This document shows positions 6,311-54,858 of a DNA stretch of 64,000 nucleotides, piece after piece. The first letter of the stretch is position 1. Each line of letters starts with the position of its first letter. The notes under the pieces are model-generated. The model was not told the DNA's origin. It made no database searches and saw only the letters and a list, made by a program, of their open reading frames with translations. The stretch is from Pelotomaculum schinkii (GTDB lineage Bacteria > Bacillota > Desulfotomaculia > Desulfotomaculales > Pelotomaculaceae), in contig NZ_QFGA01000001.1 of assembly GCF_004369205.1 (NCBI RefSeq), forward strand, positions 1,240,001 to 1,304,000. The letters run 5' to 3'. The position numbers and the translations under genes were made by a program.

Positions 6311-7702
6311 TTAAAACTCGGCATTCTTGGGAGTCCTGGGGAAGGAAATGACGTCGCGGATGTTGGTCATACCGGTCAGGTACATAATCAACCTCTCAAA
6401 GCCCAGGCCAAAGCCGGCATGACGAGCGCCGCCGTATTTCCTGAGATCCAGGTACCACCAGTAGTCTTCCTTGTTCAAACCCAGCTCGTCTATCCTTTTT
6501 TCCAAATGGTCGAGCCTTTCTTCACGCTGGCTGCCGCCGATGATCTCACCCACGCCGGGGACCAACAGGTCCATCGCCGCCACAGTCCTGTCGTCATCAT
6601 TCATCCTCATATAAAAGGCCTTGATCTCTTTGGGGTAATCGGTTACGAAAACAGGCCTGCCGAAGTGCTTTTCAGTTATATAGCGCTCGTGTTCGGTCTG
6701 CAGGTCCAGTCCCCATTCGGCCGGGTACTCAAAACGCTCACCGGAATTTTTCAGGATCTCAATAGCTTTACTGTAAGTGATGTGGCCGAATTCGGCGTTA
6801 ACGATGCTGCCCAAACGCTCGAGCAGTGCTTTGTCAACAAAACTATTGAAGAACTTCATTTCTTCGGGGCAGTGTTCCAGCACGTAATTTATCGTAAATT
6901 TGAGCATATCTTCGGCCAGTTTCATATTGTCGCTTAGATCTGCAAAGGCTATCTCCGGCTCGATCATCCAGAACTCGGCCGCGTGGCGCGGGGTGTTGGA
7001 GTTTTCGGCCCGGAAGGTGGGTCCAAAGGTATAAATCTTATTGAAGGCCATACAGTAGGATTCCCCTTCCAGCTGGCCGCTGACCGTCAGGTTGGTTTCC
7101 TTGCCGAAGAAGTCTTTCGTAAAGTCCACTTCTTTTTTCTCATTGCGCGGGGTTTTGTCAAAGTCCAAAGTGGTTACCCGAAACATTTCCCCGGCGCCTT
7201 CCGCGTCGCTGCCGGTGATAATGGGGGTCTGCACATAGATAAAGTCTCTTTCCTGAAAGAACTTGTGAATGGCGTATGCGGCAACCGACCTCACCCGGAA
7301 CACGGCGGAAAAGGTGTTGGTGCGGGGCCTCAAATGCGCAATGGTACGCAGGTATTCAAAAGTGTGCCTTTTTTTCTGCAAGGGATAGTCGGAAGCGGCA
7401 AGTCCCTCAATTTCAATAACGGCCGCTTTTAATTCAAAAGGTTGTTTTGCGCCCGGTGATTCCACAATTTGCCCCGACACACTGATCGATGACCCGGCGC
7501 CAAGCTTTGCTATTTCTTTGTAGTTGGACAGGCCTTCATCATACACCACCTGGAGGTTTGGGAAAAATGTCCCGTCGTTTAGCTCAATAAAGCCGAAGGT
7601 CTTGGAAGACCTGAGCGTCCTGACCCAGCCGTTGATTTGCACTTCTTTATTCAGGTAGTTTTCCTTATGCGCATAAAGCTCTCTTACCGTAGTTGTCGCC
7701 AT
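6311..7702 (-). CDS. asnS: Asparaginyl-tRNA synthetase
   Basis: The 463-aa class II aminoacyl-tRNA synthetase charges tRNA-Asn with asparagine. It has an N-terminal OB-fold anticodon-binding domain (about 17-110, [20 protein letters not shown]), motif 2 [16 protein letters not shown], and motif 3 [13 protein letters not shown] followed by the C-terminal SFPR. The length is normal. Asn rather than Asp specificity follows from overall similarity and the absence of the long AspS insertion. ATG start with GGGAGGGGG upstream. It is separated from the upstream asparaginase gene by a terminator (7813-7837) and has its own predicted promoter. The leader is about 100 nt, too short for a T-box. Confidence 0.97.
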
Positions 7703-49040: not shown

Positions 49041-49072
49041 TAATTAAGTATGAAATACAGGAAGTGCCAACT

Positions 49073-49522
49073 ATGAAACCCACTGCAAAAACAATTGAAA
49101 TTGAAAAGCTGTTACCCCGGTTAAAAGAAATTTCCCGGCAATTTCCTGCGGTTGCGGCGGCATACCTCTTTGGGTCTTACGCCGGCGGACGCCCCACACC
49201 ACTCAGTGATATAGATATAGGTATCATAATGGCCCGGGAATTACCGGATATGGAGTCCTTCCGCATTGAAATGAGCTTGGCGGGAGAACTGGAAAAGATA
49301 TTCGAAACCGATAATATCGACCTGGTGGTTCTGAACAAAGCGCCTCTCCCCATTCAATACAACGCCACCTGCGGCAAGCTGCTTTTCAGCAACGATGAAG
49401 AAAAAAGATCCGATTTCGTAGAATATGCGAGAAAATACTACATCGACTGCCTGCCTATCTACCGTGAATACCGTGAGGAGTTTTTTAAAAGACTGCAGGA
49501 GGGGAGAAAGACGGATGGTTAA
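49073..49522 (+). CDS. MNT-type nucleotidyltransferase antitoxin
   Basis: The 149-aa minimal nucleotidyltransferase of the MNT/MntA family has GSYAGGRPTPLSDIDIGI (GSx10DxD) with a third Asp in NIDLVVL. In HEPN-MNT (type VII) systems this protein transfers AMP to the HEPN toxin and silences it. ATG at 49073 is chosen because AGGAAG is then 9 nt upstream; GTG at 49064 would be too close. The stop overlaps the HEPN start by 8 nt. Confidence 0.88.
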   Translation: MKPTAKTIEIEKLLPRLKEISRQFPAVAAAYLFGSYAGGRPTPLSDIDIGIIMARELPDMESFRIEMSLAGELEKIFETDNIDLVVLNKAPLPIQYNATCGKLLFSNDEEKRSDFVEYARKYYIDCLPIYREYREEFFKRLQEGRKTDG

Positions 49523-49931
49523 TTTTCAAAAGGTAGATAAGCAGTTAAAAATGCTTGACAATTACCTGTCTATTTTAAGCCAACTCAGCAATATAAATCA
49601 TAATGAATTTATTAATGACCCACGTAATTACGGCAGCGCAGAAAGGTTCCTGCAGTTAGCGATAGAAACCACCTTGAATATCGGCAACCACATCATTTCC
49701 ATCTATAATTTTGAAGCTCCCAAAGATTACTCGGATATATTTATTATACTTGGAAATCATGGTGTTCTACCAAAAGATTTCGCCAAAGAATTAACCAACA
49801 TGGCTCGTTTTCGCAACCGCCTGGTACATATATATTGGGAAATTGATACCAGTAGGGTTTATACTATAATACAAACAAAACTGAAGGACTTTGAGGATTT
49901 CAAGAAATATATTCTAGCTTTTCTTGCCTAG
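49515..49931 (+). CDS. HEPN-family RNase toxin (HepT)
   Basis: The 138-aa all-helical HEPN protein has the RNase motif R-x4-H in FRNRLVHIYWEID. The start ATG at 49515 has GGAGGGG upstream inside the MNT gene and gives MVNFQKVDKQLKML. HEPN toxins cut RNA when not modified by their MNT partner. The motif and lengths look intact, so this pair may be active, unlike much of the surrounding defence debris. Confidence 0.88.
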   Translation: MVNFQKVDKQLKMLDNYLSILSQLSNINHNEFINDPRNYGSAERFLQLAIETTLNIGNHIISIYNFEAPKDYSDIFIILGNHGVLPKDFAKELTNMARFRNRLVHIYWEIDTSRVYTIIQTKLKDFEDFKKYILAFLA

Positions 49932-49989
49932 CGTTTGTCAACGGCATTTATATTCTAATATAATGTTGTGTAAAGGTTGTATTTAACTG

Positions 49990-50069
49990 ATAGCATGGCC
50001 AGCCTGCAGCATGTGGGCAGAGGTGCGGGGTAAGTCCTACGTGCACCCGTGACACAAAGGTCATGCTAT
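49990..50069 (+). ncRNA. Candidate structured RNA: three-helix junction
   Basis: A closing helix of 11 bp, 49990-50000 with 50059-50069 (one G-U), encloses two hairpins: GCCTGC/GTGGGC (50002-50007 with 50013-50018, loop AGCAT) and GGTGC/GCACC (50022-50026 with 50043-50047), the second with an inner GGG/CCT stem and TAAGT loop. Total 80 nt. It lies 58 nt past the HEPN gene and touches the end of cas6, which converges. No T-tract follows on either strand, so it is more than a simple terminator. Strand and function are unknown; the second hairpin slightly resembles a group II intron substructure. Confidence 0.4.
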
Positions 50070-51049
50070 ATTTCTTTATACCCAAGCTTCAAGTGCTCAT
50101 ACTTCCCCATCCCAAACACCGCCCCCTTGCCCACATGCACCAGTTCCCCCAGCCGCAAGAGGGGCAGAAACTCGTCCAATTCACCTTCATACTCCACCCG
50201 GCCCACCAGGCCGCCCATGTTCACCTTGTTGTCCTGGCGGGAAGAATAGCGCTCCCAGTTCACCCAACGGGTACCGTCACTAACCAGCCGGACTTCCGCC
50301 GCCCGTTCAATCAGCCCGGTAAAGTCAAGCTCCAGTTCCCAGCCATGGTGAAAATAGGCCAGTGACGAGAGCCTGCGTAAAAGGCTCCGTATGAGCATGT
50401 GAAACTCAATATGGTGGACGAAATTTTCTTCAAACTTAATCCTGGTGATGGTCAAAAAGTCCAAACCAAGGCGAGTTAAGGCTATAACTTTATCCTTCTG
50501 ACGTAAAAGGTCAGCTGAGTCAAACTGGATGGCCAGATTGGTATTTCTCACAAGCTGGTCTTCCGCCTGGTACACCAATTGGCTTTCCTCGTTGTTCAAA
50601 CCAATTGCCCGAATTTCGGCCAGCCGGTATTTCCTCCTCATTTTCCCGATCCCCAATTCGCCCAGTTCACGAAAGGCAACAATAAAATAAGGAAGGTAAT
50701 TGATCGCCCTGCCGATCAGGATTAGATTGAAGTCCAGCTTCTCGCCGGGCCTATATTCGGTTTTGGTTTCCAGCGGGGGTTCGAGGATAAAGGGCCGGGG
50801 GATACTTTCGTAATTGCGGAGGGCTTCAGAACCGGGGGGAGGCGCGGTTTCAAAGATATAAGCATAGGGACAGCTTGTCCTTAAGAGGCAGTTGTTGCAA
50901 TTGGCCTCCCTGAGTGAACAAGAGATCCTCCGAAAGGCGTTGCCGAAACCGCCTCTTAAGGTGGAACCCTTGTAAGGGGGCAGAAGCAAACCTTTCTCCC
51001 CAGCCTCTATGGTGAGTCGGTATTTAGCTATTGTAAAATATTTGGACAT
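50066..51049 (-). CDS. cas6: CRISPR-associated endoribonuclease Cas6 (RAMP family)
   Basis: The 327-aa Cas6-like RAMP processes pre-crRNA. It has a PYKGSTLRGGFGNAFRR N-terminal segment, a four-cysteine patch CSLREANCNNCLLRTSC (about 44-60) of the COG5551 type, and a C-terminal glycine-rich loop HVGKGAVFGMGKYEHL (about 306-321) that binds the repeat RNA. ATG start with GGAG 8 nt upstream. No other cas gene is in the window, and the only array is the remnant about 2.5 kb away, so it is an orphan that may serve an array elsewhere. Confidence 0.88.
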   Translation of the reverse strand: MSKYFTIAKYRLTIEAGEKGLLLPPYKGSTLRGGFGNAFRRISCSLREANCNNCLLRTSCPYAYIFETAPPPGSEALRNYESIPRPFILEPPLETKTEYRPGEKLDFNLILIGRAINYLPYFIVAFRELGELGIGKMRRKYRLAEIRAIGLNNEESQLVYQAEDQLVRNTNLAIQFDSADLLRQKDKVIALTRLGLDFLTITRIKFEENFVHHIEFHMLIRSLLRRLSSLAYFHHGWELELDFTGLIERAAEVRLVSDGTRWVNWERYSSRQDNKVNMGGLVGRVEYEGELDEFLPLLRLGELVHVGKGAVFGMGKYEHLKLGYKEI

Positions 51050-54203: not shown

Positions 54204-54617
54204 TCATTTTTTCAACCCCTTTTTCTTTTTAGTTAACCAGTGAATGTTTACCTTATCAGAAACACGTTCAAACTCTGCATCTCCAGTTAGAAGCGGCGCA
54301 TCTTTCTCAATAGATAAAGCGGCGGCAAAACAGTCTGCATAAGAAATACCGCCTCTTGCCTTAAGTTGCCCGGCTGCTTTCGCTCGTTCCCAAGTAGCTT
54401 CAACCACGCGAATATTTTGCGCCATGCTTAATTCCGATTCAACCAGCCTCGCAACTTCCATACCCCGTTCCCTTAAAACCGTATAATAAACCTCGCCAAG
54501 ATTAACGGCGCTGATAAAAAATCTATTCCCTGGAGCTTCGAGAAGGTCTTTTACTGCAACTCCACCCTCTTCAGCCTCCAGGAATGCCAATAAGGCATAG
54601 GCGTCAAATACGTACAC
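54204..54617 (-). CDS. vapC: PIN-domain ribonuclease toxin VapC
   Basis: The 137-aa PIN nuclease has acidic residues in VFDAYALLAFLE, AVNLGEVYY (Glu), YADCFAAAL (Asp) and LLTGDAEFE (Asp), the four-acid metal site. GTG at 54617 is the likely start, one base after the vapB stop (TGA-C-GTG) with AGGAAAG upstream; longer starts would run far into vapB. VapC toxins cut tRNA or rRNA. The catalytic set is complete, so the pair may be active. Confidence 0.9.
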   Translation of the reverse strand: MYVFDAYALLAFLEAEEGGVAVKDLLEAPGNRFFISAVNLGEVYYTVLRERGMEVARLVESELSMAQNIRVVEATWERAKAAGQLKARGGISYADCFAAALSIEKDAPLLTGDAEFERVSDKVNIHWLTKKKKGLKK

Positions 54618-54618
54618 G

Positions 54619-54858
54619 TCATTTTCTTTCCTTCTCGATCTCCTTGGCATGTTCTTCTTGCAGCGACCGGGTTAAGCTTTTTTTGTCCTTTAATGCGCCA
54701 TAAAGCCCCACAAATGGTTTGCCCTGTGCACGGACCAGGATCAACTTGCCGTCTACTTCCTGCAACTCAAGTCTGTCACCCTGTTTGATGTTGTACTTTT
54801 TCCTAATTTCCGAAGGTATAATAATTTGTCCCCTTGTCGATACAGTAATGACCGGCAC
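54619..54858 (-). CDS. vapB: AbrB/SpoVT-type antitoxin VapB
   Basis: The 79-aa protein has a swapped-hairpin AbrB DNA-binding domain at 1-47 (VSTRGQIIIPSEIRKKYNIK, LELQEVDGKLILV) and a charged C-terminal helix that binds VapC. Directly upstream of vapC and just downstream of a palindrome-covered promoter, which it should repress. Confidence 0.9.
   Translation of the reverse strand: MPVITVSTRGQIIIPSEIRKKYNIKQGDRLELQEVDGKLILVRAQGKPFVGLYGALKDKKSLTRSLQEEHAKEIEKERK

Follow-up and report, generated by a model that had tools for sequence, protein, structure and literature searches.

The 80-nt element at positions 49990–50069 of the window, the 64,000-nucleotide stretch of DNA analyzed here, belongs to a family of structured RNAs that recurs beside DUF3800 genes and is also carried by phages. 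The reading we favor, at a probability of about 0.45, is that the element is a dedicated small RNA gene and the RNA half of a DUF3800 module, in which the RNA would restrain a nuclease and the phage copies would act as antidotes. A broader proposal, that RNA and DUF3800 together form a new RNA–protein anti-phage or toxin–antitoxin module which phage copies disarm and of which the window keeps an orphan "immunity" RNA, is offered more tentatively, with the odds leaning against it.

Fold and family of the RNA element

The coordinates that the initial annotation gave to the element stood, on the plus strand, and folding bore out its 11-bp closing helix and its second hairpin with the loop AGCAT. 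The plus strand of 49990–50069 forms the closing helix and two inner helices at a minimum free energy of −34.6 kcal/mol (z −2.3), with 3 of 200 shuffles folding as well, and the minus strand does not stand out (z −0.2). The covariance model R1 recognizes a three-way junction here at 98.8 bits, the window copy being one of the sequences on which the model was trained. The closing helix, P1, pairs a 5′ arm at 49990–50000 with a 3′ arm at 50059–50069, the latter overlapping the cas6 stop codon (50066–50068), and 95.0% of its cells are paired; compensatory changes in this helix, which the annotation had named as the support to look for, were found on both sides in 7 of the 11 pairs. P2 (50002–50018) is the hairpin GCCUGC-AGCAU-GUGGGC, with arms at 50002–50007 and 50013–50018, two-sided changes in 2 of 6 pairs and 98.7% of cells paired. 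It is followed by a joining sequence, AGAGGUGC (50019–50026), identical in 14 of 14 aligned rows, phage rows included, whose last letters enter P3 (50024–50051; UGCGGG at 50024–50029 with CCCGUG at 50046–50051), where every cell is paired (100%) and 1 of 6 pairs shows two-sided changes. The segment GUGACACAA at 50049–50057, whose first letters lie in P3, is identical in 13 of 14 rows, the exception being L008 with GUAACACAA. The third helix of the annotation is thus present but was drawn differently by comparison of 13 sequences, with TAAGT inside P3 and not in a simple hairpin loop; in the window P3 encloses a weak inner hairpin that varies across the family. The AGCAT loop, thought to be conserved, is replaced by GGGA, AGUAU, UGGAA or UGCAA in other copies, and the conserved letters are instead CAGAGGUGC, identical in 14 of 14 rows, and GUGACACAA.

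Homologs were found in related genomes and show covariation, the outcome on which the annotation had staked the element. A blastn search with 90 bases of the element matched 7 of 150 genomes, its own included, and a plasmid of Carboxydocella thermautotrophica (E 2e-6). R1, built from seven sequences (alignment A1), had matches in 7 of the order's 113 genomes and in 5 of 398 sampled from the phylum, again counting the window's own genome in each. A pattern search added four IMG/VR records, with three distinct phage sequences among them. The family now comprises 13 distinct sequences (14 rows) from Bacillota-type bacteria, one plasmid and phages, scoring 64–99 bits with R1, seven of them being R1 training sequences; the named records are Desulfotomaculum, Desulfotomaculaceae, Pelotomaculum, Desulfovirgula, Carboxydocella and "Bacillota bacterium". 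The copy L003 (genome G017), identical to L004, was omitted from alignments A1 and A2 but still counted as a genome, and L048, identical to L047, was counted once.

In alignment A2, the 23 pairs of P1, P2 and P3 (11, 6 and 6 bp) are standard pairs in 97.3% of 297 cells. Two-sided changes occur in 10 of the 23 pairs, against a shuffle mean of 3.7 and with 0 of 500 shuffles reaching 10, although related sequences can exceed shuffles and diverged rows weigh more in this count because changes are scored against the commonest pair. Pair types that recur in distant rows are stronger evidence of covariation; the P3 pair at columns 40/127 is A-U, G-C or U-A. Sliding the partners lowers pairing to 25–41%, a control that leans towards the proposed structure since structure and alignment derive from the same sequences. 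With 57 G-U cells, the plus strand pairs in 289 of 297 cells and the reverse strand in 235 of 297, and the folding z is better on the plus strand for 12 of 13 sequences, the exception being L035 (reverse −3.5 vs −2.0). Folded singly, P1 is supported in 13 of 13 sequences (mean pair probability at least 0.73) and P2 in 11 of 13, being low in L008 and L047, while the mean pair probability of P3 exceeds 0.5 in only 2 of 13, so that P3 rests on comparison. P3 is plain in L035 (CUGGG-UUCGC-CCCAG); in the other copies it encloses GGUAAG-like letters and the variable inner hairpin, which in L036 (1501–1635) is extended to ~60 nt, unlike in other aligned copies.

No Rfam family matches the element above chance. 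The Infernal/Rfam scan proposed in the annotation gave chance-level hits only: with Rfam 15 at gathering thresholds the window had no matches, DUF3800-I and DUF3800-IX included; at E ≤ 10 in 501 bases the two hits were ceN113 (16.7 bits vs a gathering threshold of 40, minus strand, partly over the element) and WT1-AS_2 (16.4 bits vs 45); and at E ≤ 5 in eight loci there were none. An intron relic or known ribozyme, both raised earlier, thus finds no backing in Rfam. A mobile palindromic unit (MITE- or REP-like) or a transposon end would suit the inverted-repeat ends and sporadic distribution of the element, but each matching genome holds one match, the window's own genome (G000) included, the junction letters are conserved, and covariation comes with strand-specific G-U pairs; we regard a mobile unit or intron relic as scarcely credible.

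Further searches for distant copies added no members. The viral pattern GTGCGGGGTAAGTCC occurred at 17 loci, none matched by R1 at E ≤ 1; GCAGAGGTGCNGGGTRA gave 23 loci, four already known, and just one of the 19 new ones, L077, had a score (14.5 bits, E 0.37), which was not accepted. GCCAGC..GCAGAGGTGC occurred at 120 loci or more, and four matches of 15.0–15.7 bits among the 119 new ones searched with R2 were rejected, as were two (14.6 and 13.1 bits) among the seven loci of CCNGTGACACAACGGYC not already known, out of nine. GGCAGAGGTGC with a longer gap and one pattern search of genome contigs returned nothing. A match in Haliea alexandrii (L038) lies in a coding frame, was missed by both R1 and R2 and was attributed to chance; R2 found nothing in 398 genomes of the Haliea phylum, a search without positive control whose empty result carries no weight. 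Run on the order of genome G196 and the class of genome G162, R2 hit 1 of 4 genomes each time, namely G196 and G162 themselves. By blastn, the L002 copy had no match among phages and the L036 copy matched only Carboxydocella among plasmids.

Transcription, gene neighbors and the DUF3800 partner

A promoter-like sequence, TTGTCA - 18 nt - TATAAT, is predicted on the plus strand at 49935–49964 (−35 at 49935–49940, −10 at 49959–49964) with 11 of 12 consensus letters, a score that 0 of 200 shuffles equaled. It begins 4 nt past the HEPN stop codon and lies 25 nt before P1, and would place the start of the RNA near 49971. Of the 10 non-phage copies, the window's among them, 6 have TATAAT at most 80 nt upstream, and none of the 3 phage copies does; the best promoter match has at least 10 of 12 letters in 8 of 10 non-phage copies, although outside the window and L035 between 12 and 28 of 200 shuffles score as high. 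In the three phage copies the best match has only 7 letters and no promoter is recognizable; the RNAs of L045 and L047 share the orientation of the neighboring phage genes. Covariation, strand asymmetry and the promoter-like sequence together support the small RNA that the annotation had listed among its possibilities.

The element lies between two converging genes, as first described. On its left are, both on the plus strand, an MNT nucleotidyltransferase gene (49064–49522; Pfam PF18765, E 3.4e-20) and a HepT-like HEPN gene (49515–49931; PF01934, E 6e-33), and on its right cas6 on the minus strand (50066–51049; PF10040, E 2.2e-21), whose 3′ end abuts the RNA directly; we take all three to be neighbors outside the RNA module. 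The 134 nt that separate the HEPN and cas6 stops hold little beyond the promoter-like sequence and the RNA. The MNT/HEPN pair is free of stops in the window, and in genome G013 (L085) the tblastn alignment shows the HEPN gene interrupted by a stop and an internal gap. Tandem Repeats Finder detected no tandem array in the window, and the window cas6 is an orphan, with no cas3, cas5, cas7 or cas8 relative in 64 kb. At 54204–54858, neighboring ORFs resemble by eye a PIN-domain toxin and an AbrB-type antitoxin, a VapBC-like pair.

A terminator or cis-regulatory element of cas6 or HEPN, whether riboswitch-like or a bidirectional terminator, was weighed against this arrangement. Convergent gene ends flank the element, and P1 with the T-rich tails that follow it in several relatives could end transcription in some copies. 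The window copy lacks such a tail, being followed by ATATTTCTTTATA with no clean T-tract, as the annotation had remarked; neighbors vary among the copies, the junction letters are conserved beyond the needs of a terminator, and the strand of the cas6 message pairs worse. A riboswitch was abandoned, since the loci read show no recurring gene downstream on the same strand, and we consider this class of explanation very unlikely as a whole.

In the family relatives a DUF3800 gene stands between the RNA and cas6, and in the window none does. The order in G013 is MNT, broken HEPN, cas3-cas5-cas7-cas8, RNA, DUF3800 and cas6, the names from cas3 to cas8 being assigned from gene order and likeness and the cas8-like protein having no Pfam hit. 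In G016 this order recurs from the cas genes through RNA and DUF3800 to cas6, and there is no MNT match. The window and G013 share cas6 at 69% and MNT at 71% identity, and tblastn with the G013 proteins found no relatives of cas3, cas5, cas7, cas8 or DUF3800 within the 64-kb window. The window RNA and those of L004 and L005 are close in alignment; farther upstream the homology weakens, and the TATAAT boxes stand in different columns. The gene order of the relatives suggests that the window lost DUF3800 and cas3-5-7-8 and retained the RNA. Two losses that spared the RNA are the simplest account, the alternative being insertion in the relatives.

The annotation had suggested a possible link of the element to the HEPN/MNT pair or Cas6. 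Both were rejected as partners: among the loci examined, Cas6 adjoins the RNA in the window and the family relatives only, and MNT is confined to the window and G013; the RNA recurs beside DUF3800 in differing contexts, and alone in phages. The gene convergent to the RNA is DUF3800 in L004 (G013), L005 (G016), L002 (plasmid), L036 (G196) and L007 (G104), with the DUF3800 stop codon inside P1 or within ~55 nt of it in all five. The PF12686 profile (cut-off 21 bits) scores L002 at 36.9, L005 at 25.8 and L004 at 21.8, barely over; the 125-aa piece of L007 alone has no Pfam hit, and the L036 protein owes its assignment to DUF3800 to tblastn and to its alignment with L002 (54% identity), not to Pfam. 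In PADLOC, L002 had only a weak match to DUF3800_VII (E 5e-4), and L036 a single hit at chance level. A profile of the RNA-adjacent DUF3800 genes, A3, found 4 genomes among 113 in the order at E ≤ 1e-5 and 3 among 299 in the phylum at E ≤ 1e-10, in overlapping sets. In 7 of 7 genomes found with this subfamily the RNA lies beside the DUF3800 gene, though three of the seven (G013, G016, G017) are close relatives, and the impression that DUF3800 is never seen alone is partly ascertainment, A3 having been built from genes already adjoining the RNA. Treating genomes as independent, which is not the case, puts the chance of the 4 of 4 linkage in the order at 5.4e-6. The linked contexts vary from a plasmid to an island beside an Abi_2 gene and a cas operon. 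The family is one of conserved structured RNAs that recurrently adjoin DUF3800 genes. The DUF3800 gene is split in two frames in G104 and reduced to a fragment in G387, and the RNA pairs are kept in both (23 of 23 and 22 of 23). The G196 module is flanked by AlbA_2 (Schlafen) and Abi_2 genes (L083, 4343–5134 and 7945–8838), surroundings that look like an integrative element or defense island. The subfamily was not found in viral contigs, scanned by peptide pattern, or in the phage collection, and among plasmids turned up only in Carboxydocella.

The DUF3800 partner is predicted to have an RNase HII fold. An AlphaFold2 model of the L036 protein (6 rows) reached a mean pLDDT of 87.7 and a pTM of 0.87, and its only two Foldseek matches at E ≤ 0.001 were both to the RNase HII 1eke (E 7.9e-5, TM 0.53). 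In a structure search the best RNase HII chain was 3p83_D (Z 12.9, 144 residues, 2.6 Å, 16% identity); the top 20 rows were RNase HII, H2 or H3 chains (Z 9.2–12.9), followed by a retroviral integrase core (Z 7.8). A PDB sequence search with DUF3800 gave nothing significant. A YIDESG motif is conserved near the N-terminus and resembles the DEAGRG motif of RNase HII; L004 has YVEESG, with Glu replacing the first Asp of the DES motif.

RNA-only copies and the proposed role of the RNA

The RNA occurs without an adjacent DUF3800 gene of the A3 subfamily at 7 of 14 loci, namely the window (G000), G071, G096, G193 and three phage loci. PF12686 was sought in these four genomes and in four phage records, some of which may be fragments, and was found only in G071, in two genes more than 1 megabase from the RNA. 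The RNA of G071 lies downstream of an Amidase_2 gene in a stretch resembling a prophage, that of G096 adjoins a PD-Lambda-2-like gene (PADLOC E 2.6e-32) and a MazE-like gene, and that of G193 is surrounded by housekeeping-like genes. At L081, the gene at 6406–7449 (Beta_protein PF14350; PADLOC PD-Lambda-2_C) adjoins the orphan RNA and the MazE-like gene beside a DUF927/DUF3854 gene. Among the phages, the L045 RNA is flanked by an integrase and a member of a phage family of unknown function (PHROGs), the L046 RNA near an integrase (PHROGs), and the L047/L048 RNA between an SSB (PHROGs) and a gene that by eye is DNA polymerase-like. A phage with the RNA (L087, 5674–8077) has genes that by eye resemble those for 7-deazaguanine synthesis (QueD, QueE, FolE, QueC), possibly for anti-restriction DNA modification. 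The phage rows hold 13 of 25 two-sided pair changes (seven in L046, five in L047, one in L045) with identical junction letters, indicating that the RNA fold is kept in phages without DUF3800.

A protein not seen without the RNA, an RNA often seen without the protein, and RNA copies in phages are what an antidote RNA predicts. In the mechanism we propose, a small RNA of ~80–100 nt would be transcribed rightward from the promoter-like sequence, would bind the predicted RNase HII-fold DUF3800 nuclease and would restrain it as an RNA antitoxin or inhibitor. Such an RNA could persist after loss of the protein, as in the window, and phages would gain by carrying it as an antidote. Counted against this are the poor support for P3 in single sequences, the reverse-strand fold of L035, the Glu of L004, the phage copies without recognizable promoters, the G193 orphan among housekeeping-like genes, and a single convergent unit unlike type III antitoxins. 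The phage RNAs could also serve an unrelated function instead.

The main rival makes DUF3800 a ribonucleoprotein effector activated by the RNA, which would be its required cofactor, guide or substrate, with phage copies being decoys or captured for phage use. The same linkage in 7 of 7 genomes would fit it, as would the DUF3800 proteins of Cas12a2 loci. Passages of PMC10910872 and PMC12669027 describe a DUF3800 protein that accompanies a Cas12a2 sub-branch, with an RNase H fold and a catalytic rearrangement, and suggest a role in interference or in crRNA biogenesis or degradation. Against a cofactor or guide stand the orphan RNAs in genomes and phages without the protein and the lack of a variable guide-like segment save the inner hairpin of unconserved sequence, and we think it somewhat unlikely. 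Less likely still is a regulatory sRNA acting on a host or phage target of its own, which DUF3800 would only process or accompany: the seven loci without adjacent DUF3800 and the promoter-like sequence of the window are in keeping with it, but against it stands the adjacency to DUF3800 in each of the seven genomes found with the subfamily, in several contexts.

Comparison with known systems

A small structured RNA adjoining a DUF3800-like gene recalls the DUF3800 RNA motifs reportedly described by Weinberg et al. in 2017, which include Rfam DUF3800-I (RF02969) and DUF3800-IX (RF02968). Both RNAs are named in passages of PMC11701678. We found a single DUF3800-I locus (L059, in 1 of 149 genomes), between ORFs that by eye resemble phage terminase and portal genes; at that locus the RNA precedes the DUF3800 gene in the same orientation, and its end forms a terminator-like hairpin with a T-tract. 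Compared with this one locus, the element family differs in sequence and structure and lies downstream, convergent in the linked loci read. In the portions of the DUF3800 literature covered, no role was found stated for DUF3800 proteins and their attached RNAs, and no description of the element family was found there, although Weinberg et al. may describe one outside Rfam. DUF3800-linked RNAs are a known kind, and the family, its convergent arrangement and its phage copies appear to be new. A survey of RNA candidates in CRISPR operons mentions a palindrome covering the end of cas6, found mainly in Bacteroidetes (PMC9067536), which is set beside the element here by description only.

The family offers a compact, well-defined RNA and a partner with a confident RNase HII-like model, and the RNA-only phages and genomes are a natural experiment, so that antidote, guide and substrate are directly testable against one another. 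In type III systems the RNA antitoxin consists of tandem repeats that precede the toxin gene in the same orientation, the toxin having the ToxN/TenpN/CptN fold. The logic proposed here would, by analogy, be that of ToxIN, in which an RNA restrains a nuclease and phages can carry an RNA mimic. The element does not have the type III arrangement of tandem repeats upstream of a toxin of that fold: its proposed partner has a predicted RNase HII-like fold, and a single RNA unit lies downstream in convergent order. Phage PhiTE carries an RNA mimic of the ToxIN kind, pseudo-ToxI (PMC3475682). RNA anti-CRISPRs (Racr) are described in PMC10651486 as solitary phage-encoded small RNAs that mimic a host immune RNA. 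The phage copies may be likened to Racr, by description, as solitary phage-encoded small RNAs; unlike Racr, the family is tied to DUF3800, with cas genes nearby or not, and it may add to the few phage-encoded RNAs known to act against bacterial immunity.
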